Shown here in pieces: positions 18,539 to 33,517 of a stretch of DNA of 64,000 nucleotides; the first letter of the stretch is position 1, and each line of letters begins with the position of its first letter. Source of the stretch: Pseudomonas sp. S04 (lineage in GTDB: Bacteria > Pseudomonadota > Gammaproteobacteria > Pseudomonadales > Pseudomonadaceae). The DNA lies in the NCBI RefSeq assembly GCF_009834545.1, contig NZ_CP019427.1, forward strand, positions 2,362,001-2,426,000, read 5' to 3'. The notes beneath the pieces were generated by a model. It was not told the DNA's origin. It saw nothing but the letters and a program-made list of their open reading frames with translations, and did not search any database. The position numbers and the translations under genes are program-made.

Positions 18539-18586
18539 AGGTATCGTGATTGACGATAGGTTGCATCCCTGAACTCGATTAGTCAG
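18539..18586 (+). promoter_or_regulatory. Nod-box-like element A, upstream of a NodD-like LysR gene
   Basis: The core at 18543-18579 is ATC-N9-GAT-N7-ATC-N9-GAT. The flanks AGGT and TAGTCAG are shared with elements B and C. It ends 71 bp before the LysR ATG at 18650. The geometry equals the rhizobial nod box, the NodD target, and also gives two T-N11-A LysR boxes. Confidence 0.75.
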
Positions 18587-18649
18587 CCTCCCTCAGTCAC
18601 GGCAGTCTGGCTGTCATCAGAAAACTCCAGGGTGCGAGACAGGTACAAC

Positions 18650-19585
18650 ATGCGTTATCGACGCCTTGACTTGAACCTGCTGGTCGCGCTGGAAGCCTTG
18701 TTGAGCGAAGGCAGCGTCAGCAGGGCCGCCGAGCGATTGTGCCTGGGTCAGTCGGCAACCAGTTCGGCACTCGGGCGTTTGCGCGAGCATTTCAATGATC
18801 CGTTGCTGGTCCAGGTAGGACGGCGATTGGAAGCCACGGCACTGGGGGTGGCGCTGCTTCCCAAAGTGCGTGAAGCATTGGCACTGACGCGTGAAATCAT
18901 CGATGCACCGGTCAACTTCGAGCCGGCCGACTGTTATCGCAACTTCACGTTGGTGGCGTCCGACTACGTGGCTGGCGTGTTGTTGCCGGCAGTCAGCCTT
19001 GAATTGGCTCGAGTCGCACCTGGCGTTCGCTTGAGTCTGCGGGATTTGCCCGTACCGCGCGACGGTGATGTGGTCAGCGAAGCGCTCGATTATCGACGCA
19101 GTGACTATGTGATTGTTCCCAAGCGGCGCTTGAACCCGGCTTACCCTCATGTACCACTGATGAGTGACCAGCTCTGTTGCATCGTCTGCGCGCGGGAGCC
19201 GCAGTTCGCCGACGGATTAAGCCTGGCCGACTACTGCAGCGCCGAGCACGTGGTTCGCGAGTTTGCCGAGGGTCAAAACCTGGCGATGGATGCTGTGCAT
19301 CTGCATGAGTTGGGTATTCAACGTCGAGTGGCGGTGGCCCTGGAAAGTTTTGTGCTGATGCCCGAGTTCATCGTAGGAACTGCGCGGATCGCCACGGTGT
19401 TTCGCCGACAGGCACAGCGCTTCGCTCAACATTATCCGCTGCGTATTCACCCTACACCGTTGGCATTTCCCGACGCTGTGCAGGTGCTGCAATGGCATCC
19501 CTATCAAGACCATGACCCGGCAATGGCGTGGTTCCGCGGCCTGCTATCGGAGCAGGCCGCGTTGCTTGATCAAAGTGCCAACTGA
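18650..19585 (+). CDS. LysR-family regulator, NodD/NahR-like (first)
   Basis: The 311-residue LysR protein begins MRYRRLDLNLLVALEALLSEGSVSRAAERL, followed by ALGRLREHFNDPLLVQVGR. This N-terminus is typical of the NodD/NahR/FdeR group. The effector domain runs from about residue 90. The ATG at 18650 has AGGT 7 bases upstream, and a GTG at 18632 is less likely. A nod-box-like element lies just upstream, suggesting auto- or cross-regulation with the second LysR at 22927. It overlaps the end of the converging DUF336 gene by 16 bp. Inducers of this group are flavonoids or aromatic acids; the inducer here is unknown. Confidence 0.85.
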   Translation: MRYRRLDLNLLVALEALLSEGSVSRAAERLCLGQSATSSALGRLREHFNDPLLVQVGRRLEATALGVALLPKVREALALTREIIDAPVNFEPADCYRNFTLVASDYVAGVLLPAVSLELARVAPGVRLSLRDLPVPRDGDVVSEALDYRRSDYVIVPKRRLNPAYPHVPLMSDQLCCIVCAREPQFADGLSLADYCSAEHVVREFAEGQNLAMDAVHLHELGIQRRVAVALESFVLMPEFIVGTARIATVFRRQAQRFAQHYPLRIHPTPLAFPDAVQVLQWHPYQDHDPAMAWFRGLLSEQAALLDQSAN

Positions 19586-20031
19586 TCACCGGTGTCCGCC
19601 ACCAGTGCCGCCTGCTCAATAGCCTGCAAAGCGCATCGTTCGTCATTGTCCGAAGTGTCGCCGCTGACACCCACGGCCCCCAGAATCAGGCCCTCGGCAT
19701 TGCGAATCAGCACGCCGCCGGCTGCGGGAATGACCTCGCCGCCGGTCAGGCTGTTGATGGCGTCGTAAAACGCCGGCATCGCCTGTGCGCGCCGGGCCAG
19801 TTCACGCCCGCCGAAACCCATTCCCAGGCAACCGCGGGCCTTGCCGGTGGCAATTTGTGGTCGCAGGAAACTGGCACTTTCATCACGCAAGACTGCCAGC
19901 GGATGACCTGCAGCATCCAGCACGGCGACGGCCAGTGGCTTGATGCCCGTTTCCCGGGCGATACGGATCGCGCTACTGGCGATATGGGTGGCGGTCATCA
20001 GGTCGAGGTGTTGCATCGTGTCGGTTCTCAT
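19570..20031 (-). CDS. DUF336 (GlcG/HbpS-like) protein
   Basis: The 153-residue protein belongs to the GlcG/HbpS family. Typical segments are GIKPLAVAVLDAAGHPLAV, a SFLRPQIATGKA helix, and GEVIPAAGGVLIRNAEGLILGAVGVSGDTSDNDE at the C-terminal half. The family's biochemical role is poorly defined, with haem or small-ligand binding described for HbpS. Such genes often sit in aromatic or glycolate operons. Its ATG overlaps the stop of the amidohydrolase (ATGA), so the two are co-translated and probably work in one step. Confidence 0.8.
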   Translation of the reverse strand: MRTDTMQHLDLMTATHIASSAIRIARETGIKPLAVAVLDAAGHPLAVLRDESASFLRPQIATGKARGCLGMGFGGRELARRAQAMPAFYDAINSLTGGEVIPAAGGVLIRNAEGLILGAVGVSGDTSDNDERCALQAIEQAALVADTGDQLAL

Positions 20032-21377
20032 TGCGCCCACTTGCCCAATTGGGTAACGCGGTCCCTGGTGTACAGGTCAGTCCATTTCAGCGAGTTGAAA
20101 TCAGAAACCTGCTTGGGGTTGTAAGGGCTGCGCTCCATGCGCGCAGGTTGGCCTGCCTTGTACACGGCTTTAAGGCGAGAGCGGTCTTGCAGGATGCGGA
20201 TGTCGTGCAGCGGCGAACCGTCGAGCAACAGGAAGTCCGCTTGCTTGCCCACTTCGAGGGTGCCGATGGTTTCACCGCGTGGCATGCAACGTGCGCCGAC
20301 GGCCGTGGCGGCGTACAACGCTTCTGCGGGTGAGAAGCCCAGGCGAGTGACCAACAACTCCAGTTCACGGGCATGCCATTCGCCATAAGGCGTTACTGCA
20401 AAACCACTGTCACTGCCGCAGGCGAAAGGCACGCCCGCGGCTTTGGCACGCTTGAGCACCGCTGAACCGATTTCCAGGGTGCGGGCACAATAGCCGGCGT
20501 AACCGGTGCTGATGGCCGGATCGTGGGGCTGGCAGAAGTCCACGGTGTTTTGCGGGAAGGTCATGGTCGGCGCGAGGATGCTGCCGGCTTCGAGCAAGGC
20601 CTCGATGCATGCGTCGTCCATGTAGAAGGCATGGAACACCAGATCGACACCGGCGCGCGCGGCATACATCACCGCCTCTCGACCATAGGCATGGGTCGCT
20701 ACTTTGCAGCCCAGGCGATGGGCTTCCTGGACCATTTCATAGGTTTCTTCTGCGGTGAACGCGGCGATGATTTCGCCATTCGAGCGGCGGTGAGTACCGT
20801 CCATGGCGATCTTGATAAGGTCGACGCCATCCTTGGCTTGTTTGCGGATTTGCGCCAATGCTTCACTGCGGCTGGTGACCAGGTGCGCGGTGAAATATTC
20901 CGGAGCGCCTACGCGGCTCGGGAACCAGTCGTTGAGGCTCTGTCGATTGGTGATGACCCGGCTGCTGGCGGCGATGCGCGGGCCCTCGAACAAGCCGGCC
21001 GCGATTGCAGTGCGCACCGCGATGCTGAGTTGGCCGCTATCGCCAGGGCAGACCATGCTGGTCACGCCAGCGGCCAGTACATGTTGGGCGAAGAACATGC
21101 CGCGCAGGGCGCGGAACTCGTCACTGGTCCAGATATCAATGTCTTCTTCGCTCTGCGCGTTGCCAAAGGCCAGGTGGGTGTGCACATCCACCAGGCCGGG
21201 CATGACAAAGTTATCGCCGGCGTCCAGCAGCGTGTCTCCCGGTTGTGGCTGCGGTGCAGCAGCGGTCGGGCCGACATATGACAGCAGGCCGTTTTCCACG
21301 ACCAGGGTTTGCTGTTGACGGGTGTGCAGACCGGTTCCGTCGAACAGCGTCTGGCATTTCAGGTGCAGGGCGGGCAT
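20028..21377 (-). CDS. Metal-dependent amidohydrolase (imidazolonepropionase-like)
   Basis: From the ATG at 21377 (MPALHLK) the protein has 449 residues. The signature is the metal-binding HxH in VMPGLVDVHTHLAFG, later His residues in KVATHAYGREA and VFHAFYMDD, and the Asp in CGSDSGFAVTP. These fit the COG1228 amidohydrolase superfamily with one or two metals. Longer in-frame starts reach 21704 but run through the terminator and gene remnant, so I rejected them. In this cluster it would hydrolyse a cyclic amide, lactone or a C-C/C-O bond of a ring-cleavage product. The substrate is unknown. Confidence 0.82.
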   Translation of the reverse strand: MPALHLKCQTLFDGTGLHTRQQQTLVVENGLLSYVGPTAAAPQPQPGDTLLDAGDNFVMPGLVDVHTHLAFGNAQSEEDIDIWTSDEFRALRGMFFAQHVLAAGVTSMVCPGDSGQLSIAVRTAIAAGLFEGPRIAASSRVITNRQSLNDWFPSRVGAPEYFTAHLVTSRSEALAQIRKQAKDGVDLIKIAMDGTHRRSNGEIIAAFTAEETYEMVQEAHRLGCKVATHAYGREAVMYAARAGVDLVFHAFYMDDACIEALLEAGSILAPTMTFPQNTVDFCQPHDPAISTGYAGYCARTLEIGSAVLKRAKAAGVPFACGSDSGFAVTPYGEWHARELELLVTRLGFSPAEALYAATAVGARCMPRGETIGTLEVGKQADFLLLDGSPLHDIRILQDRSRLKAVYKAGQPARMERSPYNPKQVSDFNSLKWTDLYTRDRVTQLGKWAQ

Positions 21378-21463
21378 GGCAATTTCACTTTGCTGATTGT
21401 TATGCAAAGCGAAGCTAGGGCAGAGCCTTGGATGCCACCAGCAACTTGTATCAATGCTCACGT

Positions 21464-21478
21464 ATTGATGGCGTCGAT
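21464..21478 (+). promoter_or_regulatory. Possible LysR half-site (ATT-N9-GAT)
   Basis: ATT-N9-GAT has the same form as the first half of element C, in the 110-bp region between the amidohydrolase start and a gene remnant. The second half is not recognisable, so support is weak. Confidence 0.25.
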
Positions 21479-21487
21479 AGCGGTCCG

Positions 21488-21730
21488 ATGACCACCGCAA
21501 CCGAAAAAACCGAACTCCGGGCACTTGAGCAAGCACGTCGCCGGGCATTGGTAGAGGAAGACTATTCGCGTGTCGCGCAGTTGTTCGCCGACGATCGGGT
21601 GTACTTACACACCGCGGGGGTGGTGCAAGGCAAGTCGGAGTATCTGGGGTATGCGAAAAACGCCGGAGAGCCCCAGGGCTGTCCGGCGTTTGTTGTCTTG
21701 CCAAGCGTTTTAAGCGGTGTGGCCGCCTAA
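21488..21730 (+). pseudogene. Truncated SnoaL/NTF2-like gene remnant
   Basis: The frame starting MTTATEKTELRALEQARRRALVEEDYSRVAQL resembles the first two helices and strand of a DUF4440/SnoaL-type NTF2 fold (LFADDRVYLHTAGVVQGKSEYLGYAKN). After about 57 residues it runs into a perfect transcription terminator on the opposite strand (21657-21690), and the remaining residues look random. NTF2-like proteins are usually 120-150 residues. I read this as the 5' remnant of a gene cut off by insertion or rearrangement. The coding status is uncertain. Confidence 0.45.
21656..21690 (-). terminator. Rho-independent terminator of the alpha/beta hydrolase gene
   Basis: On the minus strand AACGCCGGA pairs with TCCGGCGTT, with an inner GCCC/GGGC stem, and is followed by five Ts. 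It lies 20 bp past the hydrolase stop at 21710. Confidence 0.8.
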
Positions 21731-22867
21731 GGTTTCGGCAATCCAGTCAGCGATGTAATGACCCGCGTTGATGCTGTTATCAAAGCTGGAATGCTGTACG
21801 CCGCCTTCGCGCTCGGTGAAGATTTTAAGCTCACGTTTAGGGCTGTTAACCAGTTGCTCGTAAGTACGCTGTGCCCACTTGAGCGGTATCTGCGAGTCCT
21901 TTTCACCGTGGGTGACCAGGAACGGAACCTTGATGCGGTCCAGTACGCCGTCCAGGTGCACATTTTCGGCGATGGTCATGAACTCATCCATATCCTTTGC
22001 CCCCCACACCCAGCACACGTGCGCCCAATAGTGCGGGACGGGGAAGCTACCTTCTTTTTCCAGGCGGCGTTTTTGCACGTCGCGCCAGTCATGGTTGGCG
22101 CCCCACACCACACCACAGGCAAACCGTGGTTCAAACGCCACCGCACGCGGGCAGTAATAACCGCCGAGTGAAACGCCTTCCAGGCCGATACGCTGGGCAT
22201 CAACGTCACTTCGGGTTTGCAGCCAGTCGACCACGCGGCTGGCCCAATGCTCGCTGTCATATCGGGCAATCAGGTTATGCAAGCGCAGTGCTTCACCCGT
22301 TCCGGGTTGGTCGATAATCAACGATGACACTCCGCGTTTTGCCAACCACCCCGGCAGTCCGACGCGATATTTCATTTCTTTGGTCGAGTCCAGTCCATTG
22401 ACCTGCACCAGGATCGGCGCTGGGCCGGTCACGCCTTCGGCACGCACCAGCAAGCCGGAAATATGTTTGCCCTCGTAGGGGATTTCAACGCGCTCGCAGT
22501 TCTCCCGTGACAGTTCGATACCGCGTTTGAATGTCTGAAGGAAGCGCTGGTAAAGCGCTGTACGACCAGGGGCCCCGTGGGCTTGAAGGCGCTCGCAGGT
22601 GAGGTAGTAAGTGGCGGCGCGGCTGTACTTCTCGCCGGCGGACAGCAGTCGTCCATGGCCTTCATCTTCTTCGGCCAGGCCGCAGAGCTTGTCAGCCATC
22701 TTCGCCCAGGTTTCGCGAAATGCTTTGGTTCCAGCGGCGTCAGGCTGCTGCGCGGCTTCCTGAAGCGGTGCACACATCTCCTCAATTTCGCCCATCCGGG
22801 CACCCATCTCGATGGCCAGGTCGACTGAGAGATTCCACACGTAATTGGTCGGGAAGTAGCGGAACAT
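21710..22867 (-). CDS. Alpha/beta hydrolase with helical N-terminal cap (DHPON-hydrolase-like)
   Basis: The 385-residue hydrolase has the nucleophile elbow GVSLGG with Ser233, an acidic residue in VTHGEKDSQIPL and a His in GGVQHSSFD. About 120 helical residues precede the core. This build matches 2,6-dihydroxypseudooxynicotine hydrolase and relatives, which cleave C-C bonds next to a hydroxylated aromatic ketone. That would suit a flavonoid- or acylphenol-derived intermediate, but the activity here is inferred. Its promoter contains nod-box-like element D, which lies inside the 3' end of the upstream LysR gene. AAGGACAACAACAAT before the ATG includes a Crc/Hfq-type motif. Confidence 0.83.
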   Translation of the reverse strand: MFRYFPTNYVWNLSVDLAIEMGARMGEIEEMCAPLQEAAQQPDAAGTKAFRETWAKMADKLCGLAEEDEGHGRLLSAGEKYSRAATYYLTCERLQAHGAPGRTALYQRFLQTFKRGIELSRENCERVEIPYEGKHISGLLVRAEGVTGPAPILVQVNGLDSTKEMKYRVGLPGWLAKRGVSSLIIDQPGTGEALRLHNLIARYDSEHWASRVVDWLQTRSDVDAQRIGLEGVSLGGYYCPRAVAFEPRFACGVVWGANHDWRDVQKRRLEKEGSFPVPHYWAHVCWVWGAKDMDEFMTIAENVHLDGVLDRIKVPFLVTHGEKDSQIPLKWAQRTYEQLVNSPKRELKIFTEREGGVQHSSFDNSINAGHYIADWIAETLGGHTA

Positions 22868-22881
22868 GATTGTTGTTGTCC
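22868..22881 (-). promoter_or_regulatory. A-rich Crc/Hfq-type motif before the hydrolase start
   Basis: The minus strand reads GGACAACAACAATC directly before ATG, with an AAGG ribosome-binding site overlapping it. A translational repressor bound here would cover the initiation site. Confidence 0.5.
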
Positions 22882-22926
22882 TTATGGTTGCCTTGGCGTT
22901 TACAAGGCAAGGTAAGGACGCCCCGA

Positions 22927-23889
22927 CTAATTGGCCAATCGTGAGTCGGGATGGGAGGTATCGCGAGCAGCGATATGATCGTGTTCAAGATGCTGGATGA
23001 ATTCGCTAATGCGTTCGCGCAGCCAGCGGTGCATGGGGTCGCCGTCGACGCTGCGGTGCCAGAGCATGACCTCGCGCATCACCGGTATCTTCACCGGCGG
23101 ATTGAGGATGCGCAGCGGCAGGTGTTCGGCATACAACCGCGCCAGACGCTGGTGCATGGTGGCGATGCGTTGGGTGCCAACGACTAGTTGTGGTAGGGTG
23201 TTGAAGTCGTTCGTGATGACCTCGATACGCCGATTGAAACCGTACTGGTTCATGAACCACTCTTCGATGCTCAAGTGCCGGCTACGGCCGAACCCGACAG
23301 AAACGTGGCCCATGCCCATGTACTGCTCAAGGGTCAGGCTGTCGCCGACCTGGGTATTGCCGTCCCACACCACGCAGACATGCTCCTCTTCAAACAGCAG
23401 CTTGTGAGGGTGACCGTCAATGATGTAACGCTCAGGCACGATCATCAGGTCGACCTCGCCGCGAACCAGTAACTCACCGGAATTGTCGCCAGGGCCAAGC
23501 ATCTCGAAAGTGATGTTGGGCGCCTCTTGGTGAATCTTCTGAATCACCTGGGCAAACAGCACGCTGATCAGGTAGTCCGAGGTCACGAGGCGGAAATGAC
23601 GTTTGCTGGTCGTGGGGTCGAACACCGGCTTGGCAGTGATCGACGACTGGATCGTCAACAGTACCTCGCGGATGGGTTTGGCCAGTTCCTGGGCATACGG
23701 TGTGGGCTGCATCTTACGCCCCACCTGTACCAGCAGTTCGTCTTCGAAATAAGTACGCAGGCGTCCCAATACACCGCTGGTGGCGGACTGAGTCATGTGC
23801 AGGCGTTCGGCGGCACGGGTGATGTTCTGCTCTTCTAGCAAAACATCGAGGGCGACCAGCAGGTTCAAATCCAGATGATTGAAACGCAT
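22927..23889 (-). CDS. LysR-family regulator, NodD/FdeR-like (second)
   Basis: The 320-residue LysR protein starts MRFNHLDLNLLVALDVLL and continues LGRLRTYFEDELLVQVGR. This resembles the N-terminus of NodD (MRFKGLDLNLLVALDAL...). The helix-turn-helix covers about residues 20-45 and the effector domain about 95-300. It is divergent from the dioxygenase gene, with element B between them. Its own 3' end holds element D. NodD and FdeR respond to flavonoids, so a polyphenol inducer is plausible. It is the best candidate for the protein that binds elements A-D. Confidence 0.87.
   Translation of the reverse strand: MRFNHLDLNLLVALDVLLEEQNITRAAERLHMTQSATSGVLGRLRTYFEDELLVQVGRKMQPTPYAQELAKPIREVLLTIQSSITAKPVFDPTTSKRHFRLVTSDYLISVLFAQVIQKIHQEAPNITFEMLGPGDNSGELLVRGEVDLMIVPERYIIDGHPHKLLFEEEHVCVVWDGNTQVGDSLTLEQYMGMGHVSVGFGRSRHLSIEEWFMNQYGFNRRIEVITNDFNTLPQLVVGTQRIATMHQRLARLYAEHLPLRILNPPVKIPVMREVMLWHRSVDGDPMHRWLRERISEFIQHLEHDHIAARDTSHPDSRLAN
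22932..22974 (-). promoter_or_regulatory. Nod-box-like element D, inside the end of the LysR gene
   Basis: On the minus strand the core (22974 down to 22938) is ATC-N9-GAT-N7-ATC-N9-GAT. A 33-base segment (22932-22964) differs from element C at 7 positions. It lies 70 bp upstream of the hydrolase ATG and overlaps the last 12-16 codons of the LysR gene. A protein-coding sequence and an operator therefore share the same bases. Confidence 0.7.
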
Positions 23890-23983
23890 TGGGCAGGTCC
23901 GTTTTTGTATTTATTTTCGCGATACATTCCGGTGAATTGAGCATCCCGTCAACCCCGCCTGTGCGCTGCCGTTCCGCGCACTC

Positions 23984-24031
23984 AGGTATCGCGTTTTCGG
24001 ATAGGTCGCATCCCCACTCGCGATTAGTCAG
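23984..24031 (+). promoter_or_regulatory. Nod-box-like element B, divergent LysR / dioxygenase promoter
   Basis: The core at 23988-24024 is ATC-N9-GAT-N7-ATC-N9-GAT, flanked by AGGT and TAGTCAG. It lies 99 bp from the LysR ATG (23889) and 142 bp from the dioxygenase ATG (24167), so one bound regulator could act in both directions. Confidence 0.78.
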
Positions 24032-24166
24032 CTGCCAAACCGCACGGCAATCTTCGCCGCAGTCGGACTTCTTGCCGACACCACCACCGGATTCCCTGCA
24101 TCGCTCAACGGCCTGTCGAGCCGTCGGTGCCGGTTTGCGGATACTAATTTCAATGGAGTGGTAGCC

Positions 24167-25096
24167 ATGAACATCATTGGCCTTGATGCCCTGATCTTTG
24201 GCGTCGATGACATCCAAGCCTGTACCGATTGCCTGCGTGATTACGGCCTGACGCCGGTTGACGTCGACAACACGGGTGGGCGTTTTGAAGCATTGGACGG
24301 CACGTCTGTGATCATTCGTCGAGCGGACGATCCAACGCTGCCGGTTGCCATCGGCCCGGCACCGTCGATTCGCGAAACCATTTACGGCGTTGCCAGCGCG
24401 GCAGACCTTGATGCAATCGAAGATGAGTTGGCGCGCGATCGTCAGGTCACCCGTGAAAACGGTCTGCTGCACAGCTTCGACGACATGGGGTTTGCCATCG
24501 CATTCCAGGTCACTGTTCGCAGGTCCTACAGCGCCCCGGATGACTTGACCAACGCCGCCGGCCATGCGCCACAGCGTCCGCTCAACCAACCCGGCATTAC
24601 CCTCGACATGCGTGCGGTGCCACGTACCTTGTCCCATGTGGTGTATTTCGTCCCCGATGCCGCCAAGGCCGAGGCCTTCTACGCCGACCGCCTGGGTTTC
24701 AGAACCACTGACACCTTCATTGGGGCGGGGCCATTCATGCGTCCGGCGGGTTCCGATGATCACCATTGCCTGTTCATGATCCAGACCCCGCCGCACATGA
24801 AGGGCTGCGAGCACTTCACCTTCCACATGGGCAGCGGCACTGAAGTGTTGCTGGCCGGTACACGCTTCGAGCAAAAAGGCTGGACCAGTTTTTGGGGCCC
24901 TGGCCGTCACCTGTTTGGCTCCAACTGGTTCTGGTACTTCAACAGTCCGCTGGGCTGCCACATCGAATACGACGCCGACATGGACAAGCACGATGACGCC
25001 TGGGAGGCGCGCCGTGCCCCTCTGTCGGCGGATAACTCGCAGCTGTTCCTGTTCACTTCGAAAGAAAAATGGGCGCCAGGCGGCCCGCCGCGGTAG
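24167..25096 (+). CDS. VOC-superfamily (type I extradiol-like) dioxygenase, FdeC-like
   Basis: The 309-residue protein has two VOC (glyoxalase/extradiol dioxygenase) modules, about residues 1-120 and 150-290. The C-terminal module has the three likely metal ligands of type I extradiol enzymes: His157 (LSHVVYFV), His216 (CEHFTFHM) and Glu267 (CHIEYDAD). Such enzymes open a catecholic ring beside the hydroxyl pair. The ATG at 24167 has GGAG 9 bases upstream, and a GTG at 24158 is less likely. It is followed by a Rieske ferredoxin and an FAD hydroxylase, the same trio as fdeC-fdeD-fdeE of Herbaspirillum. The assignment to a polyphenol ring is inferred. Confidence 0.8.
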   Translation: MNIIGLDALIFGVDDIQACTDCLRDYGLTPVDVDNTGGRFEALDGTSVIIRRADDPTLPVAIGPAPSIRETIYGVASAADLDAIEDELARDRQVTRENGLLHSFDDMGFAIAFQVTVRRSYSAPDDLTNAAGHAPQRPLNQPGITLDMRAVPRTLSHVVYFVPDAAKAEAFYADRLGFRTTDTFIGAGPFMRPAGSDDHHCLFMIQTPPHMKGCEHFTFHMGSGTEVLLAGTRFEQKGWTSFWGPGRHLFGSNWFWYFNSPLGCHIEYDADMDKHDDAWEARRAPLSADNSQLFLFTSKEKWAPGGPPR

Positions 25097-25105
25097 GTAT
25101 CTGCC

Positions 25106-25447
25106 ATGGACCGCAGCGATTTTCCCCTGTGCCGGATGGATGAACTGGTGGAAGGACAGGCACGCGGATTCGATCCGTTGCAGCGCGGCAAGGACAGTGT
25201 TTTTGCCTTGTTGCATGCGGGGCAGGTGCGGATTTATCGCAACAGTTGCCCGCATCTGGACGTGCGCCTGGAGTACCGCAAGGACCGGTTCTTGTCGGCT
25301 GATGGGCAGTTGATTGTCTGTTACGCCCACGGTGCGCAGTTCCTCCCGAGCACTGGCGAATGTGTCTACGGCCCGTGCCTGGGCCAAAAACTGGACGCCT
25401 TGCCTTGGCACCAGGAGGCCGGCTGGGTGGTGCTGGAAGGCCTGTAA
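25106..25447 (+). CDS. Rieske [2Fe-2S] ferredoxin-like protein
   Basis: The 113-residue protein carries one Rieske cluster. Its ligands are Cys-X-His in NSCPHLDV (about residues 48-50) and Cys-X2-His in VCYAHGAQF (about 72-75). It has no membrane anchor or other domain. It starts 9 bp after the dioxygenase and is probably translated with it. A small ferredoxin beside an extradiol dioxygenase could keep its active-site iron reduced, as XylT does for catechol 2,3-dioxygenase, or could serve an oxygenase. Confidence 0.86.
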   Translation: MDRSDFPLCRMDELVEGQARGFDPLQRGKDSVFALLHAGQVRIYRNSCPHLDVRLEYRKDRFLSADGQLIVCYAHGAQFLPSTGECVYGPCLGQKLDALPWHQEAGWVVLEGL

Positions 25448-25471
25448 CAACAGCGTGCTCAGGGGCGATTG

Positions 25472-25519
25472 AGGTATTGCGTTTGGCGATACATCGCATC
25501 CCTACACGCGATTAGTCAA
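25472..25519 (+). promoter_or_regulatory. Nod-box-like element C, upstream of the FAD hydroxylase operon
   Basis: The core at 25476-25512 is ATT-N9-GAT-N7-ATC-N9-GAT, flanked by AGGT and TAGTCAA. It ends 90 bp before the hydroxylase ATG at 25603. The first triplet is ATT instead of ATC and every spacing is identical to A, B and D. Confidence 0.75.
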
Positions 25520-25602: not shown

Positions 25603-26727
25603 ATGAGTGCAGTGAACAAAGTTCTGATCGTGGGCGGTGGTATTGGTGGCTTGTGTGCGGCCATAGCCCTACGACGCAAGGGCATTGAGGTCGATCTGGT
25701 CGAACTCAAGTCAGAATGGACCGTTTACGGTGTCGGGATCATCCAGCAAAGCAACGTGGTCCGCGAAATGGCCAAGCTGGGTGTGCTTGACGGTTATCTC
25801 GATGCGGCGTATGCCTTTGAAGACGTCGCGATCTACGGCCCGGCGGGTCAGCAGCTGGCGCGCATCCCGGGCCAGCGCCTGGCAGGGCCTGCGTACCCGG
25901 CCAACGTCGGCATCTCGCGTCTGGCGCTGCACAAAGTCCTCAGTGAAACGGCGCTGGAGCTGGGCGCCAAGGTCCGTTTGGGGCTTAGCGTTGAATCCCT
26001 GAACGACAATGGCGACAGCGTGGAAGTGCTGTTCACCGATGCCAGCAGCGCCGCCTACGACCTGGTGGTTGGAGCTGACGGCCTGTTCTCCAAGGTTCGA
26101 GATTTGCTGCTCGGCGACACCTACACGCCGCGCTTCACCGGCCAATCGGTGTGGCGCTACAACTTCGCGCGTGATCCGCAAATCGATCACCTCGCCAACT
26201 ACCAGAGCGCCGAAGGCAACGCCGGCCTGGTACCGCTGGCCGGCGACTTGATGTACCTGTTCCTCACCTCCCATGAACCGTCCAATCCGCGGATGGACCC
26301 CGCGACGCTGGCCGAACAGATGCGGCAGCGCTTGCAAGGCTTCACCGGCCTCATCGGCCAATTGCGTGAACAGATCACCGACAGCAGCCAAGTGGTTTAC
26401 AAGCCAATGGAAGTGGTCTTCGTCGACGAGCCCTGGTACCGCGGTCGCGTTCTGCTGATCGGTGACGCCGCGCACGCGACTACGCCGCACCTCGGGCAAG
26501 GGGCCGGCATGGCAATTGAAGATGCCATCGTGCTCAGCGAAGAGCTGACCCGCGACGGCAGCGTCGAGCAGCAGCTTCAACGCTTCATGACGCGCCGTTT
26601 CGAGCGCTGCAAGTACATCAGCGAAAGCTCGGTGCTGGCCGGCGACAAGGAAATGCAGCACGACCGGGACTTCGACCGCATCGGCCTGGTCAAGCAGATG
26701 CTTGCGCGCACGGCTGAGCCGATCTGA
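25603..26727 (+). CDS. FAD-dependent aromatic hydroxylase (UbiH/PHBH fold), FdeE-like
   Basis: The 374-residue class A flavin monooxygenase has the dinucleotide motif VLIVGGGIGGLCAA (residues 7-20), the VVGADGLFSKVR segment, and the FAD-ribityl motif IGDAAHATTPHLGQGAG near residue 287. It would hydroxylate a phenolic ring using NAD(P)H and oxygen, making the ortho-dihydroxy substrate for the neighbouring dioxygenase. In Herbaspirillum, FdeE hydroxylates naringenin at C8. The similarity of gene set is the reason for that link; the substrate is not proven. It is the first gene after element C and leads a long run of co-directional genes. Confidence 0.85.
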   Translation: MSAVNKVLIVGGGIGGLCAAIALRRKGIEVDLVELKSEWTVYGVGIIQQSNVVREMAKLGVLDGYLDAAYAFEDVAIYGPAGQQLARIPGQRLAGPAYPANVGISRLALHKVLSETALELGAKVRLGLSVESLNDNGDSVEVLFTDASSAAYDLVVGADGLFSKVRDLLLGDTYTPRFTGQSVWRYNFARDPQIDHLANYQSAEGNAGLVPLAGDLMYLFLTSHEPSNPRMDPATLAEQMRQRLQGFTGLIGQLREQITDSSQVVYKPMEVVFVDEPWYRGRVLLIGDAAHATTPHLGQGAGMAIEDAIVLSEELTRDGSVEQQLQRFMTRRFERCKYISESSVLAGDKEMQHDRDFDRIGLVKQMLARTAEPI

Positions 26728-26783: not shown

Positions 26784-28481
26784 ATGGTTAGTTCCACGAC
26801 TGCGACGCTTGCGCGCCGCCGGGTCTGCACGTCTGCACCCTTTGGTTTCAGTTTGGCCGCGGCGTTGGTGCTGTGCAGCCAGGCCGCCCATGCCTTTTCG
26901 GTGGATACCGGCAATCCGGATTTCAACCTGCGCTGGGATAACACCGTGAAGTACAGCGCCGCCTGGCGCACCCAGAATCCCAGCAGCAAGCTGACCGAGG
27001 GCCAGGTGGCACTCAACCAGGACGATGGCGATCGGGCGTTCAAAAAGGGTCTGATTTCCAACCGCACGGACATCCTCTCCGAGCTGGATATGTCGTTCAA
27101 AAACGTCGGCGCGCGCCTCAGTGGAGCCGCCTGGTACGACACCGCCTACCAGCACGACAACGATAACGACGATCCGGCGCGGGCCAACGCGCGTTCCGTG
27201 GGCTATGACGAATTCACCGACGACACCCGCCACCTGCATGGCGGCGACGGCGAATTGCTCGATGCGTTCGTGTACTGGAACGGCGAGCTGGCTGATCATT
27301 CCACGTCCGTGCGTGTCGGCCGCCACGGGTTGATCTGGGGCGAGAGCCTGTTCTTCGGCGCCAACGGCATTGCCGGTGGCATGGCGCCGGTCGACGTGGT
27401 GAAAGCGCAGTCCGTTCCCAACACCCAGTTCAAGGAAATCACCCGGCCGGTCAATCAGCTGTCGGGTACCTTCCAGCTGACCGACGATGTGTCGCTCGGC
27501 GCCTTCTACCAGTTGGAGTGGGAGGAGACACGCCTGCCGGGTGCCGGTAGTTATTTCTCCACCAGCGACACCATTGGTGAAGGCAATGAACGCTTGATCG
27601 TAGGGGCGCCGTTTCCTGCGTTCCTCGGTGGCAATCCCAGCAGTCCGGCGGCGTTCTTCCATGGCAACGACAAGGAAGCGAAAAGTTCAGGGCAGGGCGG
27701 CCTGCAGTTGAAATACAGCGCGGAAACGGTCGAGTACGGCCTGTACGCGATTCAATATCACGACAAGACCCCCAAGCTGTACCTCAAACCCTCTACCGGT
27801 GTGCCGAACTTCAGTACCGGCCAGATCGGCGAGTACTACTGGGTGTACCCGGAGGACATTCGCGCCTTTGGGGGCAGTTTTTCCACCACGGTCGACGAAT
27901 ACAGCTTCGCCGGTGAAGCCTCGATGCGCTGGAACATGCCGCTGGTTTCCAACGGGCAAACCGTCCTGCCGGGTGTCGTCGCCGACAACGATGACGATGC
28001 ACTGTATGCAGTGGGCCGTACCGCTCACGTCAACCTAAACGTCCTGGCTTCATTCGGGCCGAACTTCCTTGCCAGGGAGTCGGGACTGGTCGGTGAGATC
28101 GCCTGGAACCGCCTGCTGAGCGTCACAAAAAACCGTGCCGCCCTTGACCCCAACGCTACCGATGACGGTCTCGGGTTCAAGGTGGTCTACACCCCGACCT
28201 ACCGCCAGTTTTTCTCCGGCATCGATATCAGCATTCCGCTTGGCCTCAGCTACTTCCCGCTGGGTAAATCGGCCGTTGTCAGCTCGTTCGGTCCGGACAA
28301 AGGCGGCGATATGAACATCGGTATCACCGCCACCTACCTGGATCGCGTCACCGCCGGCCTGACCTACACGCATTACTACGGCGCCGAGGACACCAACCTC
28401 AACGCTGCCAGCCAGTTCAATTACAAGCAATCGCTCAAAGACCGGGACTACCTGGCCTTTTCCGTCAAGACCACGTTTTAA
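26784..28481 (+). CDS. DUF1302 outer-membrane beta-barrel protein
   Basis: The 565-residue protein has a signal peptide (SLAAALVLCSQAAHA, cleavage before FSVDTGN). Its many amphipathic strands end in SVKTTF with a terminal Phe, as outer-membrane barrels do. DUF1302 proteins occur next to DUF1329, YCF48-like and MMPL/RND genes in clusters for degrading hydrophobic compounds such as steroids and aromatic esters. A role in moving a poorly soluble substrate across the outer membrane is likely but unproven. An A-rich leader (ATAAAAACAAGAGG) precedes the start. Confidence 0.85.
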   Translation: MVSSTTATLARRRVCTSAPFGFSLAAALVLCSQAAHAFSVDTGNPDFNLRWDNTVKYSAAWRTQNPSSKLTEGQVALNQDDGDRAFKKGLISNRTDILSELDMSFKNVGARLSGAAWYDTAYQHDNDNDDPARANARSVGYDEFTDDTRHLHGGDGELLDAFVYWNGELADHSTSVRVGRHGLIWGESLFFGANGIAGGMAPVDVVKAQSVPNTQFKEITRPVNQLSGTFQLTDDVSLGAFYQLEWEETRLPGAGSYFSTSDTIGEGNERLIVGAPFPAFLGGNPSSPAAFFHGNDKEAKSSGQGGLQLKYSAETVEYGLYAIQYHDKTPKLYLKPSTGVPNFSTGQIGEYYWVYPEDIRAFGGSFSTTVDEYSFAGEASMRWNMPLVSNGQTVLPGVVADNDDDALYAVGRTAHVNLNVLASFGPNFLARESGLVGEIAWNRLLSVTKNRAALDPNATDDGLGFKVVYTPTYRQFFSGIDISIPLGLSYFPLGKSAVVSSFGPDKGGDMNIGITATYLDRVTAGLTYTHYYGAEDTNLNAASQFNYKQSLKDRDYLAFSVKTTF

Positions 28482-28493
28482 GAGGACTTGCGC

Positions 28494-29882
28494 ATGACCC
28501 ACAATAAGAAAACCGCAGCCTTCAAGCTCAAAGCCCTTTGCCTGGCGCTGCTCGGCGGCCTGGCCATTTGCAGCCAAGTGACATTGGCGGCGACGGCTGA
28601 AGAGGCGGCCAAACTGTCAAAGAACCTGACACCGTTCGGCGCCGAGCGCGCTGGTAACGCTGACGGCAGCATTCCCGCCTGGGACGGTGGTTACACCAAG
28701 GTGGATCCTTCGTACAAGGAGGGCGGCAAGCGCTCCGATCCATTCGCTGCCGACAAACCGCTGTTGAGCATTACCTCGAAAAACCTCGCGCAATACGCTG
28801 GCAAGCTCAGCGACGGCACCAAGGAAATGTTCAAGCGTTTCCCCGAGACTTATCGCATCGACGTTTACCCGACACGGCGCACCGCCGCCGCGCCGCAATG
28901 GGTGTATGACAACACCCTGAAAAACGCCACCCGCGCCAAATTAGTCGAGAGCAGCGCCGGTCCGGTTCCCGAAGGCGCTTTTGGCGGCATTCCGTTTCCG
29001 ATCCCGAAAAACGGCGCCGAAGCCATGTGGAACCACGTGCTCAATTGGCGCGGGACCTCGGTGTCGATGCATTTTCGGCATTACCTGATGACGGCCGACG
29101 GCAAGCAGGTGATGACCACCGACGGCAAGGCCATTCAGGAGATGCCGTATTACTACCAGGAAGGGACACCAGAGTCGTTTGCCGGTGACTACTGGCTGTT
29201 CCGGCTGCTCAACGTCGGCCCACCATTGCGCGCTGGCGAGCAGATCATGGGCCGCACCAACATCAACGGCGACCTGTCCCAGGCGCACGTTTACCTGACC
29301 GGTCAGCGCCGTGTGCGCAAGCTGCCCAATGCCTGCTGCGATACGCCGACACCGGCGACAGCCGGGGTCATGTCGTTTGACGAATTGAGTGTGTTCCAGG
29401 GCCGCATGGACCGCTTCGACTGGAAGCTGATCGGCAAGCAGGAGATGTACATCCCCTACAACACCAACAAGGTGCAAGCCGCCGCCAAACCTGAAGACCT
29501 GTTCCTCGCTCACCACATGAACCCGGATTACGTGCGTTGGGAGCTACACCGGGTGTGGGTCGTGGAAGCGGACCTGGCACCGGGCAAACGTCACCAATTG
29601 CCGAAGGGCCGTTACTACCTCGATGAGGACACTTGGCAAGCCATGTTGGGCGACCGCTGGGATGCCAACGGCCAATTGGCCAAGACGCTGTGGTCGTTGC
29701 CGGCGGTACTTCCGGACCTGCCTGCGCAAGCGCAATTGTCCTCGGGTTTCTACGACCTGACCTCCGGCGCCTGGTTTATCCAGAACGTCTACACCGGCCA
29801 GCCTGAGCAGTACGGCATGGTGGATCGCTACAAGGCCTCCGAGTTTTCACCGGCGGCGATGGCGGGTGCCGGGGTTCGTTGA
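28494..29882 (+). CDS. DUF1329 periplasmic protein
   Basis: The 462-residue protein has a signal peptide (LCLALLGGLAICSQVTLA). The mature start LTPFGAERAGNADGSIPAWDGG is the typical opening of DUF1329 proteins. AGAGGA lies 7 bases before the ATG at 28494. The family is distantly similar to LolA/LolB-like lipid carriers, so a periplasmic shuttle between the DUF1302 barrel and the RND pump is a reasonable model. It follows the DUF1302 gene by 12 bp. Confidence 0.85.
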   Translation: MTHNKKTAAFKLKALCLALLGGLAICSQVTLAATAEEAAKLSKNLTPFGAERAGNADGSIPAWDGGYTKVDPSYKEGGKRSDPFAADKPLLSITSKNLAQYAGKLSDGTKEMFKRFPETYRIDVYPTRRTAAAPQWVYDNTLKNATRAKLVESSAGPVPEGAFGGIPFPIPKNGAEAMWNHVLNWRGTSVSMHFRHYLMTADGKQVMTTDGKAIQEMPYYYQEGTPESFAGDYWLFRLLNVGPPLRAGEQIMGRTNINGDLSQAHVYLTGQRRVRKLPNACCDTPTPATAGVMSFDELSVFQGRMDRFDWKLIGKQEMYIPYNTNKVQAAAKPEDLFLAHHMNPDYVRWELHRVWVVEADLAPGKRHQLPKGRYYLDEDTWQAMLGDRWDANGQLAKTLWSLPAVLPDLPAQAQLSSGFYDLTSGAWFIQNVYTGQPEQYGMVDRYKASEFSPAAMAGAGVR

Positions 29883-29943
29883 GCAAGGCCGGATCGCGGT
29901 TTACCAACCGTGATTCGGTTTCACAAGGGTTGTCGAGGTCGCA

Positions 29944-31038
29944 ATGAACAGAATCTGTCAGGTGGTCGGTCGGCTGATGTGTCTTATGGCGTTGCCGTTG
30001 AGTCAGGCGCACGCCGCGGCGGTGGGCGACGCGCTCGCTACGCCGGCAATGCAGGCCCCACAAGCAAAATCCGCGGTGTTGCTGGACTTGGCCCGTGCAG
30101 GTGCGCGGCTGGTGGCGGTGGGCGAGCGGGGCATCGTGCTGCTTTCCGATGACAACGGTGTCAGCTGGCGTCAAGCGCAAGTGCCGGTGTCGGTCAGCCT
30201 CACGGCCGTGCAGTTTGTCGACGCCCATACGGGTTGGGCAGTCGGGCATGCGGGTGTGGTCTTGGTCTCGCATGACGCGGGTGAGCATTGGGTTACGCAA
30301 CTGGATGGACTGCGAGCGGCACAGCTAGAGCTGGCAGACGCTCGCCGGCAACTGCCGTTGGCCAATGACCAGGAGGCTGCCGCGGCGCGGGTCCAAACAG
30401 CCGAGCGCCTGGTCGATGAGGGTGCTGACAAGCCGTTTCTGGCCGTGCACTTCGTGGACGCCCAGCGCGGTCTGATCGTGGGGGCGTACGGTCTGGCCTT
30501 GCGCACTCTCGATGGCGGCACAACCTGGCAATCGCTCATGGGCAACATCGATAACCCGATGGGCGCCCATCTGTCCGCCATCGCTCAGCAAGGAGAGCAC
30601 TGGTTCCTGGCCGGCGAGCAGGGATACCTCGCGCGTTCGGACGATGCCGGCAAATCGTTCGCGCCATTGCAAAGCCCCTATGCGGGCAGCTTTTTCACCC
30701 TACAAATGCGCGATGACGGCGTCTTGCTGGTGGCTGGGTTAAAGGGCAATGCGTTTGTCTCCAGTGACCTGGGCGACAGTTTCAAACTTGCGCCGGTCTC
30801 GATGCCGGTGTCTTTCAGCGATGCCATTCGCACCGACGACGGCCAGTTGCTGCTGGTTAACCAGAGCGGCGCCTTGTTTCGCACCAACAGTCAGCCCGGC
30901 GCAATGCTCAAGCCCTTCGGCAAACCGCTCGGCAAGCCCGTCTCCAGTGTTATCCAGGCCGCCGATGGCAGCCTGACGCTGGCTGGTTTTACTGGATTGA
31001 CGCGCGTATCGCCGTCAACCACTAGCGCTTCGGAGTGA
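29944..31038 (+). CDS. YCF48/BNR-repeat periplasmic beta-propeller protein
   Basis: The 364-residue protein has a signal peptide (MCLMALPLSQAHA). Its repeats have the BNR/YCF48 pattern: LLSDDNGVSWRQA, LVSHDAGEHWVTQ, LRTLDGGTTWQSL, ARSDDAGKSFAPL, VSSDLGDSFKLA. This predicts a seven-bladed propeller like the photosystem assembly factor Ycf48. In this gene set it is found between DUF1329 and the RND protein and may be an assembly or adaptor part. The function is not known. Confidence 0.82.
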   Translation: MNRICQVVGRLMCLMALPLSQAHAAAVGDALATPAMQAPQAKSAVLLDLARAGARLVAVGERGIVLLSDDNGVSWRQAQVPVSVSLTAVQFVDAHTGWAVGHAGVVLVSHDAGEHWVTQLDGLRAAQLELADARRQLPLANDQEAAAARVQTAERLVDEGADKPFLAVHFVDAQRGLIVGAYGLALRTLDGGTTWQSLMGNIDNPMGAHLSAIAQQGEHWFLAGEQGYLARSDDAGKSFAPLQSPYAGSFFTLQMRDDGVLLVAGLKGNAFVSSDLGDSFKLAPVSMPVSFSDAIRTDDGQLLLVNQSGALFRTNSQPGAMLKPFGKPLGKPVSSVIQAADGSLTLAGFTGLTRVSPSTTSASE

Positions 31039-31042
31039 GGTT

Positions 31043-33517
31043 ATGAAGTCTTTCGACAACGCCACGGCTAGCCTGGCGAATTTCGATCCACGCTCCGGTT
31101 CAGTGGTCGAACGCACGCTGTTTAATCACCGCCTGTGGGTTCTGCTGGTGTGTGTACTGACGACGCTGGTGCTGGGTTATCAAGCCACCCGTATCGAGCT
31201 CAATGCCAGCTTCGAAAAAATGATCCCCACACAGCAACCCTACATTGCCAACTACCTTGAGCATCAGAAACAGCTCACGGGATTGGGCAACGCCCTGCGC
31301 ATCGTGGTTGCGAACAGGCAAGGCGATATCTATGACGCCGAGTACCTCAAGACCCTGCAGGCCCTGAGCGACCGACTCTACCTTCTGCCGGGTGTCGACC
31401 GGGCATACATGAAGTCACTTTGGACACCGGCCACGCGCTGGGTCGCCGTGACCGAAGACGGCCTCGACGGCGGGCCGGTGATACCGGACGACTACAGCGG
31501 CACCGTCGCCAACCTGGATGCCTTGCGCCGCAATGTGCAGCGCTCCAACGAACTGGGGCAACTGGTGGCCCTGGACCAGACCTCCAGCATCATTTATGTG
31601 CCGTTGCTGGCGAGCACCGCTGATGGTAAACCGCTGGATTACTCGGTCTTGTCCGAGCAATTGGAAACCCTGCGCAGCACCTACCAAAGTGACAACATTG
31701 ATATTCGCATCACCGGTTTCGCGAAAAAAGTCGGCGATCTTATTGCCGGCCTGAAGCAGATTCTGCTGTTCTTCGCCGTCGCGATCCTGATCACCACCGC
31801 TGTGCTGTTCTGGTACACCCGCTGCCTGCGCAGCACGGTGCTGGTGGTGCTGTGCTCGCTGGTGGCGGTGGTCTGGCAGCTTGGGTTGCTGCCATTGCTG
31901 AACTACCAGTTGGACCCGTATTCGGTGCTTGTGCCGTTTCTCGTGTTTGCCATCGGCATGAGCCACGGCGCGCAGAAAATGAACGGCATCATGCAGGACA
32001 TCGGGCGTGGCATGCACCGGGTGGTGGCCGCACGATTTACCTTCCGACGCCTGTTCCTGGCGGGGCTGACAGCGCTGCTGTGCGATGCCGTGGGGTTCGC
32101 GGTGCTGATGCTGATCAAGATCCAGGTGATTCAAGACCTTGCGGTAATCGCCAGCATTGGCGTGGCCGTGTTGATTTTCACCAACTTGATCCTGCTGCCG
32201 GTTTTGCTCTCTTATGTTGGTGTTTCACCGCGTGCCGCCCAACTGAGCCTGAAGAGCGAGCAGGCCGAGCAAAGCGGTCAGACCCGCCATGGGTTCTGGC
32301 GTTTTCTGGATCTGTTCACCCATCGTCGTTGGGCCAGCCTGTGTATCGCCATCAGCCTTGCGTTGGCAGCCGTGGGCTTTTTGGTCAGCTTGCAACTGAA
32401 AATTGGTGACCTGGATGCCGGTGCGCCGGAACTGCGTGCAGACTCGCGTTACAACCAGGACGATGCCTTCCTGACCCGTCATTACGGTGCCAGCAGTGAC
32501 CTGTTTGCGGTGATGGTGAAAACCCCAGCCAGCAGCTGTGCACGCTACGACATCCTGGCCAAAGTCGATGCGCTGGACTGGCAACTGCGTGCCTTGCCGG
32601 GCGTGGACTCGACCAACTCGCTGGCGTTGCTCAACCGGCGCATGCTGGTCGGGCTCAGTGAAGGCAACCCAAAATGGTACGAGCTGCAGAACAACCAGGC
32701 GATGCTCAACATGATCACCGCCAGCGCACCGCGCGGGTTGTACAACGAAGACTGCAGTCTGTTGACCCTTTATGCCTATCTCACCGACCACAAGGCCGAA
32801 ACGCTGACCCGTCTGGTGGAGCACGTCGAGCAGTTCGCTGCCGAGAACAATACAGACGAAGTGCAATTTCTGTTGGCGGCCGGAAACGCTGGGATCGAAG
32901 CGGCCACCAACATTGTGGTCAAACAAGCCAACCGCGAGATGCTCGTCTGGGTCTACGGCGCGGTCATTGTGCTGTGCCTGATTACCTTCCGTTCCTGGCG
33001 CGCGACGCTGTGTGCGGTGATTCCGCTGATGCTCACGTCCATCCTCTGCGAAGCCTTGATGGTCTGGCTGAACATCGGTGTGAAAGTCGCCACGCTGCCG
33101 GTCATCGCCCTGGGCGTCGGTATCGGCGTCGATTATGCGTTGTACGTGATGAGCATTCTGTTGGGCCATCTGCGCCAAGGGGCGAGCCTGTCCGAAGCGT
33201 ATTACCGTGCACTGGTTTCCACCGGCAAGGTGGTGATGCTGACCGGTATCACCCTGGCTATCGGCGTGGCGACCTGGACGTTTTCACCCATCAAGTTTCA
33301 GGCCGACATGGGTGTGCTGTTGGCCTTCATGTTTGTCTGGAACATGGTCGGTGCCTTGGTGTTGCTGCCGGCGCTGGCGTACTTTCTGTTACCTGCGCGG
33401 AACCAGCCGCAGGGTGCCGTTGTGCCGAGGTCGGTGACTCACGTGGTGGGTGCTGAGGCGGCGGTGGACGTGGACATTCAGCCCTTGCGCATCAAGGAGC
33501 TTTGTCATGGTCGCTGA
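31043..33517 (+). CDS. MMPL/RND-family inner-membrane transporter
   Basis: The 824-residue protein has two repeats of one membrane helix, a large periplasmic loop and about five further helices, the layout of MMPL/RND (HAE3-like) proteins. Clear markers are FLVFAIGMSHGAQKM and LGVGIGVDYALYVMS in the paired helices. RND proteins of this branch move lipids or hydrophobic molecules using the proton gradient. It starts 4 bp after the YCF48-like gene and overlaps the next gene by 11 bp. With DUF1302 and DUF1329 it forms a trans-envelope transport unit for the cluster substrate. Confidence 0.88.
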   Translation: MKSFDNATASLANFDPRSGSVVERTLFNHRLWVLLVCVLTTLVLGYQATRIELNASFEKMIPTQQPYIANYLEHQKQLTGLGNALRIVVANRQGDIYDAEYLKTLQALSDRLYLLPGVDRAYMKSLWTPATRWVAVTEDGLDGGPVIPDDYSGTVANLDALRRNVQRSNELGQLVALDQTSSIIYVPLLASTADGKPLDYSVLSEQLETLRSTYQSDNIDIRITGFAKKVGDLIAGLKQILLFFAVAILITTAVLFWYTRCLRSTVLVVLCSLVAVVWQLGLLPLLNYQLDPYSVLVPFLVFAIGMSHGAQKMNGIMQDIGRGMHRVVAARFTFRRLFLAGLTALLCDAVGFAVLMLIKIQVIQDLAVIASIGVAVLIFTNLILLPVLLSYVGVSPRAAQLSLKSEQAEQSGQTRHGFWRFLDLFTHRRWASLCIAISLALAAVGFLVSLQLKIGDLDAGAPELRADSRYNQDDAFLTRHYGASSDLFAVMVKTPASSCARYDILAKVDALDWQLRALPGVDSTNSLALLNRRMLVGLSEGNPKWYELQNNQAMLNMITASAPRGLYNEDCSLLTLYAYLTDHKAETLTRLVEHVEQFAAENNTDEVQFLLAAGNAGIEAATNIVVKQANREMLVWVYGAVIVLCLITFRSWRATLCAVIPLMLTSILCEALMVWLNIGVKVATLPVIALGVGIGVDYALYVMSILLGHLRQGASLSEAYYRALVSTGKVVMLTGITLAIGVATWTFSPIKFQADMGVLLAFMFVWNMVGALVLLPALAYFLLPARNQPQGAVVPRSVTHVVGAEAAVDVDIQPLRIKELCHGR

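Follow-up and report, generated by a model that had tools for sequence, protein, structure and literature searches.

The question raised by a 64,000-nucleotide stretch of the Pseudomonas sp. S04 genome (NZ_CP019427.1, positions 2,362,001 to 2,426,000; hereafter the window) is which regulator governs its cluster of aromatic-degradation genes, and in response to what kind of compound. Four elements in the window had been predicted to share the layout of the rhizobial nod box, the binding site of the flavonoid-dependent regulator NodD, and two LysR-type regulators, here called LysR1 (18650..19585, plus strand) and LysR2 (22927..23889, minus strand), had been noted beside them. The elements share their sequence and a fixed promoter geometry, are clustered and co-occur with LysR2. 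They are probably one conserved type of promoter-operator, comprising sites for LysR2, an FdeR-type regulator that would activate the likely flavonoid-catabolic promoters upon meeting a flavonoid-like inducer.

The operator elements

All four elements lie where they were originally placed and follow the geometry ATC-N9-GAT-N7-ATC-N9-GAT, with 0, 0, 0 and 1 mismatches. Operator 1 (18543..18579, plus strand) precedes the LysR1 gene, in whose sense it reads ATCGTGATTGACGATAGGTTGCATCCCTGAACTCGAT-TAGTCA; the terminal hexamer is a -35-like sequence (18580-18585) and is followed by the -10-like CAGTCT (18603-18608). Operator 2 (22938..22974, minus strand) is ahead of the alpha/beta hydrolase gene and is contained in the LysR2 coding sequence (22927-23889, minus strand), at its 3' end. 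Read in the direction of the hydrolase gene, it is ATCGCTGCTCGCGATACCTCCCATCCCGACTCACGAT-TGGCCA, with the -35-like TGGCCA at 22932-22937 and the -10-like TACCTT at 22909-22914. Operator 3 (23988..24024, plus strand), located between the divergent LysR2 and dioxygenase genes, reads ATCGCGTTTTCGGATAGGTCGCATCCCCACTCGCGAT-TAGTCA in the sense of the latter (-35-like TAGTCA at 24025-24030, -10-like CAATCT at 24048-24053). Operator 4 (25476..25512, plus strand), ahead of the FAD hydroxylase-transport operon, reads ATTGCGTTTGGCGATACATCGCATCCCTACACGCGAT-TAGTCA in the sense of the hydroxylase gene (-35-like TAGTCA at 25513-25518, -10-like GAAGCT at 25536-25541). The distances from element to start codon are 70 bp for LysR1, 70 bp for the hydrolase, 142 bp for the dioxygenase and 90 bp for the hydroxylase, in agreement with the predicted range of 70-142 bp.

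Five places in the window match the core geometry with at most two mismatches, the fifth (59593) having two, compared with a mean of 1.20 in shuffled sequence. Because the core is near-palindromic, many elements match on both strands. An extended pattern that includes the inner bases, ATYGY-N7-GAT-N6-YATCCC-N6-CGAT, is found in the 6,098,669-base genome at 0 mismatches in the four operators, at 1 mismatch in no further place, and at 2 mismatches in one (2127186), whose 3-kb surroundings were inspected by eye, without a family search. Random occurrence across the genome, which would have spoken against the original prediction, is not seen, as only the four places lie within one mismatch. The mismatch counts relative to shuffles, the rarity in the genome and the reversed-pattern controls given below, all at 0, exclude a chance origin of the elements.

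Distribution across Pseudomonas

The extended pattern was searched at up to one mismatch in 298 Pseudomonas genomes, in which orthologs were defined by E <= 1e-110 for LysR2, E <= 1e-90 for LysR1 and E <= 1e-60 for the FdeC-like dioxygenase. Matches occur in 59 genomes; the reversed pattern has 0 matches in the same 298 genomes, and further reversed controls also gave 0. A LysR2 ortholog is present in 47 genomes, and the element is found in all 47 of them versus 12 of the 251 genomes without LysR2, which is the association with a NodD-like LysR gene that such a scan had been proposed to reveal. The Fisher p value of 7e-44 is uncorrected for species kinship and hence too small; the contrast is plain. 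The 12 LysR2-negative genomes have one place each (11 a single match; G015 one place matched on both strands). The FdeC-like dioxygenase occurs in 53 genomes, 43 of which have a close copy (79-100% identical), and LysR2 is present in all 43. The matches of the 47 LysR2 genomes sit at the cluster, both in these 43 and in G009, G130, G060 and G023, the last with an element 35 bp past the end of LysR2. LysR1 is found in 31 genomes, namely 30 of the 47 with LysR2 and one other (G019), and is absent from 17 of the 47 that have elements and LysR2.

Elements with at most three mismatches to the extended pattern and at most one to the core were sought in the sequence surrounding each of the 43 close dioxygenases (stretches up to 20 kb long, the window included). 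An element is ahead of the dioxygenase in all 43 clusters, of the hydrolase in 39 (perhaps 40, as an element labelled LysR1 in L095 faces the hydrolase), and of the hydroxylase operon in 42 (36 labelled FdeE, 4 assigned to the next gene and 2 unlabelled, at +1292), L105 being the sole cluster with no element in this position. LysR2 is linked in 42 of the 43. In the exception, L106, as in the named loci L132 and L154, there is no LysR2 within the stretch and the enzyme genes retain their elements; the corresponding genomes (G161, G309 and G310) all carry a LysR2 elsewhere that is 73-79% identical.

The position ahead of LysR1 is more variable. A canonical element directly precedes LysR1 in the window and in L066, L067 and L071, and in L068, L069 and L070 it precedes a chemoreceptor gene that in turn precedes LysR1. 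Other clusters have before LysR1 either no element or a variant, ATC-N9-GAT-N7-A(A/G)CG...GCGAT. In this variant, AAC/AGC-like bases replace the third ATC and a TAAGGT-like -10 follows with unchanged spacing. It stands before LysR1 in many relatives (for example L242 at about 10168, L072-L080, and G019, which lacks LysR2), and might be a site of LysR1 itself.

Additional elements, most of them variants, were inspected in seven stretches, and two-mismatch places outside the cluster were sampled in part. Off-cluster elements occur before an NTF2-like gene (G086), before an FAD monooxygenase gene (G071), and in G151 between a divergent FAD monooxygenase and chemoreceptor pair that is followed by another LysR; the one in G092 has no evident target in the stretch inspected. 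In or beside the cluster, elements precede FAD monooxygenases (G266, G229) and a BNR-type gene (G060). A second cluster in one genome (L243, G243:C32) encodes a 68% identical LysR2 paralog, a DUF1302-DUF1329-BNR-RND set, a cupin and an FAA hydrolase, and has an element with one core mismatch.

Promoter geometry

A promoter scan was carried out on 127 operators, comprising 43 of the dioxygenase, 40 of the hydroxylase, 39 of the hydrolase and 5 of LysR1. The operators were oriented by their TxGxCA flank only, and xAxxxT was counted at offsets 8-49 after the last base of the element. Left out of the set were nine second copies on the hydrolase side at distances above 150 bp, those 6 of the 11 LysR1 rows in which mismatches exceeded one, 10 rows labelled Amid and 8 unassigned ones; among the 5 LysR1 rows retained, that of L095 points towards the hydrolase and is probably a hydrolase operator. 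The xAxxxT match falls at offset 23 in 115 of the 127 (dioxygenase 41/43, hydroxylase 38/40, hydrolase 31/39, LysR1 5/5), followed by offset 24 with 34, and all other offsets have 17 or fewer. Thus the same layout follows the element in all four slots: a -35-like T(A/G)G(T/C)CA, 17 bp, and a -10-like hexamer. The agreement of four distinct promoters is the independent point, since copies within one slot are related by descent. The earlier proposal that the elements belong to one regulon is supported.

With a transcription start about 7 nt past the -10-like hexamer, the element would span roughly -72 to -36, the region in which LysR activators bind, and an activation model is therefore proposed.

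The LysR regulators

The original prediction treated both regulators as NodD-like, and as equal candidates. NodD likeness is closer for LysR2, which shares 43-46% identity with six NodDs along its full length and 51-58% in the helix-turn-helix (HTH) region, than for LysR1 (34-38% and 48-52%). Many rhizobial NodDs are among the best matches listed for LysR2 in plasmid records. Among solved structures, those nearest in sequence are the two LysR-type effector domains 9x6w and 9iib, together with older regulators of the LysR type. Equal candidacy is not supported, as the elements track LysR2, the predicted owner of the four operators. All 47 association genomes have LysR2 and only 30 have LysR1, which makes the latter look more like a target of the system, or a partner in it, than the owner of the operators.

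Trees were built from 44 LysR proteins and again without the two longest branches, in both cases without a good outgroup. LysR2 groups beside NodD with support of 98/90 in the first tree and 91/80 in the second, and the LysR1 proteins split off as one group (100/100) in the unrooted tree. In this unrooted split LysR2 is nearer than LysR1 to NodD and to the FdeR-like proteins; with NahR as an added outgroup, the trees give LysR1 no firm place among them, and they do not prove a clade of NodD, FdeR and LysR2. A sister relationship of NodD and LysR2 is favored by these trees, and is not claimed as shown.

Comparison with known systems

The nodD regions of Rhizobium tropici, Cupriavidus taiwanensis, Paraburkholderia phymatum, Bradyrhizobium guangxiense and R. 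leguminosarum bv. trifolii all have the core between nodD and the nod genes, with 2, 0, 1, 0 and 1 mismatches respectively, and none of 60 letter shuffles was as good as these five. A sixth region, that of Sinorhizobium americanum nodD2, which has no adjacent nod genes, lacks such an element, its best match having 4 mismatches. ATC-N9-GAT has also been described in print for nod boxes of Bradyrhizobium (PMC5596368). The nod-box core geometry claimed for the window is therefore genuine, with two ATC-N9-GAT dyads 7 bp apart in both groups. In contrast, the conserved inner and distal half of the rhizobial nod box, ATCNAAACAATCRAT, and its AAACAATCRAT inner block are absent from the window elements. 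The rhizobial boxes read AAACAATC(G/A)AT, whereas the window elements read ATCCC...CGAT-T(A/G)G(T/C)CA and precede LysR1, hydrolase, dioxygenase and hydroxylase genes rather than nodulation genes. Because the inner sequences differ, the Pseudomonas element is nod-box-like and is not a nod box. The -10 spacing was also considered as a nod-box trait and rejected, as only two of the five rhizobial boxes, the two beta-rhizobial ones, show it.

FdeR is called NodD-like in the title of Wassem et al. 2017, and reportedly binds a rhizobial nod box as well. In Herbaspirillum seropedicae, FdeR is a naringenin-dependent activator of the fde genes that protects 60 bp of the fdeR-fdeA region (PMC10799723). 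As far as that system is described, it resembles the window in having a NodD-like LysR divergent from flavonoid degradation genes, with T-N11-A type sites by the promoter. The counterpart here is the LysR2, operator 3 and dioxygenase arrangement, with the operator in 43/43 and a linked LysR2 in 42/43 clusters. Hydroxylase, ring-cleavage dioxygenase, ferredoxin, hydrolase and transport genes are likewise shared as gene types, judged from homologs other than those of H. seropedicae. The fde system is described as one intergenic operator region and one operon, whereas the window has four separate operators and a second LysR. Upstream regions of FdeR-like genes yielded weak matches only (2-5 mismatches), some no better than plain letter shuffles.

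The Variovorax ifc cluster, for which Pseudomonas is listed among the hosts, comprises an FdeC-like glyoxalase, an FdeE-like monooxygenase, a pseudooxynicotine-hydrolase-like enzyme and cupins, all gene types that recur in the window (PMC11069340). The main text of that paper contains neither the term LysR nor ifcR, and so describes no regulator or operator under those names. In Pseudomonas thivervalensis SC5, genes CE140_08155-08295 are annotated as naringenin degradation, and the account of this cluster, as far as it was available, mentions no operators (PMC8515041). DSM 13194 (L143) belongs to the same species, and its cluster has the dioxygenase, LysR2 and the elements; the two clusters are probably the same, the comparison here being with L143.

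Genes of the cluster and the likely substrate

Immediately downstream of operator 3 are genes for an FdeC-like ring-cleavage (VOC) dioxygenase (24167..25096, plus strand), 69% identical to a homolog (P0052) named 'naringenin degradation protein FdeC' in its source, and for an FdeD-like Rieske ferredoxin (25106..25447, plus strand). Operator 4 precedes an FdeE-like FAD-dependent hydroxylase gene (25603..26727, plus strand), which is followed by DUF1302, DUF1329, YCF48/BNR and MMPL/RND genes, a probable transport set (26784..33517, plus strand) that recurs as the same block in Collimonas (L140) and Aquabacterium (L141). Further along are MFS transporter, cupin, FAA hydrolase, SDR, cyclase and sulfatase genes (33450..39816, plus strand), which likely encode a lower pathway. 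The alpha/beta hydrolase gene (21710..22867, minus strand) is of a type likened to a C-C bond hydrolase in the ifc work (PMC11069340). Much of this gene set accompanies FdeC-like proteins 64-70% identical in Collimonas, Aquabacterium, Acidovorax and other non-Pseudomonas loci, and the hydrolase, cupin, FAA hydrolase, SDR and cyclase genes recur in several fde/ifc-like clusters outside Pseudomonas. The match to the fde and ifc gene sets supports the earlier suggestion of a flavonoid-type substrate, which is likely on these grounds.

A p-hydroxycinnamoyl-CoA hydratase/lyase gene (8206-9036) and a 4-hydroxybenzoate 3-monooxygenase gene (39850-41034), both above the NCBI cut-off, flank the cluster and would suit a substrate with a p-hydroxyphenyl B ring. 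The hydratase/lyase is part of a region (8206-15692) that also encodes an aldehyde dehydrogenase, an acyl-CoA synthetase, a thiolase and an acyl-CoA dehydrogenase, likely a p-coumarate/ferulate route beside the cluster. Adjacent to it, a VanA-type Rieske oxygenase and a reductase are divergent from a MarR gene (15699-18512) with no nod-box-like element, and might form an O-demethylation module under MarR control. The sulfatase gene at the operon end (37951-39816) may act on sulfated phenolics.

An apparently lost operator and the chemoreceptor genes

The HbpS-like protein and amidohydrolase genes (19570..21380, minus strand) have no operator in the window. Next to the amidohydrolase lies the remnant of an NTF2/SnoaL-like (DUF4440) gene (21488..21730, plus strand). 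This gene is retained in 11 of the other 42 clusters, and in 10 of these 11 an element with at most one mismatch is found 51-73 bp upstream of it. In the window only a fragment of the gene is left and about 143 bp, including the element, are gone, so a fifth operator has apparently been lost.

Using one sensor domain as query, a methyl-accepting chemotaxis protein (MCP) gene was found in 14 of the 43 clusters. Two other MCPs are 79-88% identical to the one providing the query domain and 11 are 34-43% identical, so that these genes do not form a single clear set of orthologs. In 13 of the 14 a core element with at most one mismatch lies within 260 bp upstream (one of these being the hydrolase's element); in the 14th the element is before a monooxygenase gene and the MCP gene follows the monooxygenase. 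The chemoreceptor has HAMP and MCP signalling domains and a sub-threshold match to a helical bimodular sensor. In L068 (15973-17922) and L070 (2077-4023) the gene is situated between the canonical element and LysR1, a position that has no chemoreceptor gene in the window. The order is MarR-element-LysR1 in the window versus MarR-element-chemoreceptor-LysR1 in L068-L070, and this comparison suggests that a copy once present in the window was lost. Other clusters contain more distant MCPs accompanied by variant elements.

Proposed mechanism and alternative explanations

A LysR2 tetramer would bind the two ATC-N9-GAT dyads, whose centres are 22 bp, or about two helix turns, apart. The promoter-proximal dyad abuts the -35-like T(A/G)G(T/C)CA hexamer, which is 17 bp before the -10-like hexamer, and because of this the site is arranged like that of a LysR activator. 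Presumably, an inducer would shift the proximal LysR2 dimer and thereby allow recruitment of RNA polymerase. Operator 3 may also serve LysR2's own divergent promoter, and operator 1 would place LysR1 under LysR2.

Binding, activation and inducer class are inferred. Several observations weigh against this mechanism. The within-slot counts are raised by phylogenetic kinship, and the -10-like match is missing in 12 of the 127 operators, 8 of them hydrolase operators. A search of 26 non-Pseudomonas FdeC loci, all those among the 80 kept of 512 found, gave only two places at one mismatch (shuffled mean 0), with no common position. These clusters therefore do not have the operator sequence in common with Pseudomonas, and the exact element was rejected for them. 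The recognition helix of LysR1 is near that of LysR2 (QSATSSALGRLR versus QSATSGVLGRLR), such that the two could share sites, and cross-talk at the operators is possible. LysR1 could also be the main regulator of the four elements, or the two proteins could compete for all of them, as their HTH regions are 62% identical, 30 of the 31 LysR1 genomes also have LysR2, and an element precedes LysR1 both in the window and, as a variant with one core mismatch, in G019, where LysR2 is absent. Such a role of LysR1 is improbable given the 17 genomes that have elements and LysR2 without LysR1, which rule it out as sole regulator, and given the LysR2 gene that is linked in 42 of 43 clusters, divergent from the dioxygenase with an element in between.

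The half-site alone is not diagnostic. ATC-N9-GAT is also the reported motif of another regulator, PSPPH2193 of P. syringae (PMC11957545), and is close to the generic LysR site T-N11-A (PMC5002191). MexT, a LysR-type activator of Pseudomonas, recognizes sites termed nod boxes, ATYA(N7)YGAT, which have the same 15-bp frame and control efflux and safracin genes, in contrast to the catabolic genes of the window (PMC11432991). The elements might then be generic or MexT-type LysR sites, and their rhizobial likeness a convergence upon a common LysR layout. The trees, lacking an adequate outgroup, do not show that LysR2 and NodD share an ancestor to the exclusion of other LysRs, and the rival grouping of LysR2 with the FdeR-like proteins is not rejected (p-AU 0.31). 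This explanation is nevertheless very improbable, since the elements track LysR2 across genomes and the first half-sites read ATCG, ATCG, ATCG and ATTG. The fourth base is thus G in all four rather than the A of MexT, and MexT-type sites are rejected. Another possibility is that the compound degraded, which would also be the inducer, is an aromatic outside the flavonoids or a relative of these, for example a stilbene or an isoflavonoid. The FdeE-like hydroxylase is only about 40% identical to its counterparts in Burkholderiales clusters, so its substrate may differ, and isoflavones are the substrates of ifc clusters that have related genes (PMC11069340). However, the 64-70% identity of the FdeC-like dioxygenase to fde/ifc-like ones outside Pseudomonas and the several other genes common to such clusters make another substrate unlikely.

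Implications

Control of flavonoid catabolism by nod-box-like sites is of an already known kind. The use of nod-box architecture outside symbiosis, as originally put forward, has precedents in FdeR, the MexT nod boxes and the P. thivervalensis cluster. A literature search in which most subscription papers were outside reach found no paper treating this regulon by its title or the start of its abstract. As far as the literature covered shows, the new aspect is the four-operator form, with a promoter rule that is strict throughout many species of the genus. New as well are the apparent loss of a fifth operator, the chemoreceptor genes behind elements in relatives, the further, mostly variant, elements of the seven stretches, and a regulator that may be sister to NodD. 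The published example of FdeR, with its single promoter, is thereby extended to a multi-operator regulon that follows a precise promoter rule and is present in 47 of the 298 Pseudomonas genomes sampled.

A broader picture, offered tentatively and with more doubt than confidence, is that Pseudomonas has a programme for finding and eating flavonoids, in which one NodD-sister protein would control enzymes, transport, a second LysR and often a chemoreceptor through nod-box-like promoters of fixed spacing, and that NodD and the nod box could descend from a flavonoid-catabolic switch of this kind or share a parent with it. If true, flavonoid feeding would be tied to chemotaxis in rhizosphere bacteria, and the Pseudomonas regulon would provide a comparison group for the question of whether flavonoid switches of catabolism were the origin of NodD and the nod box.

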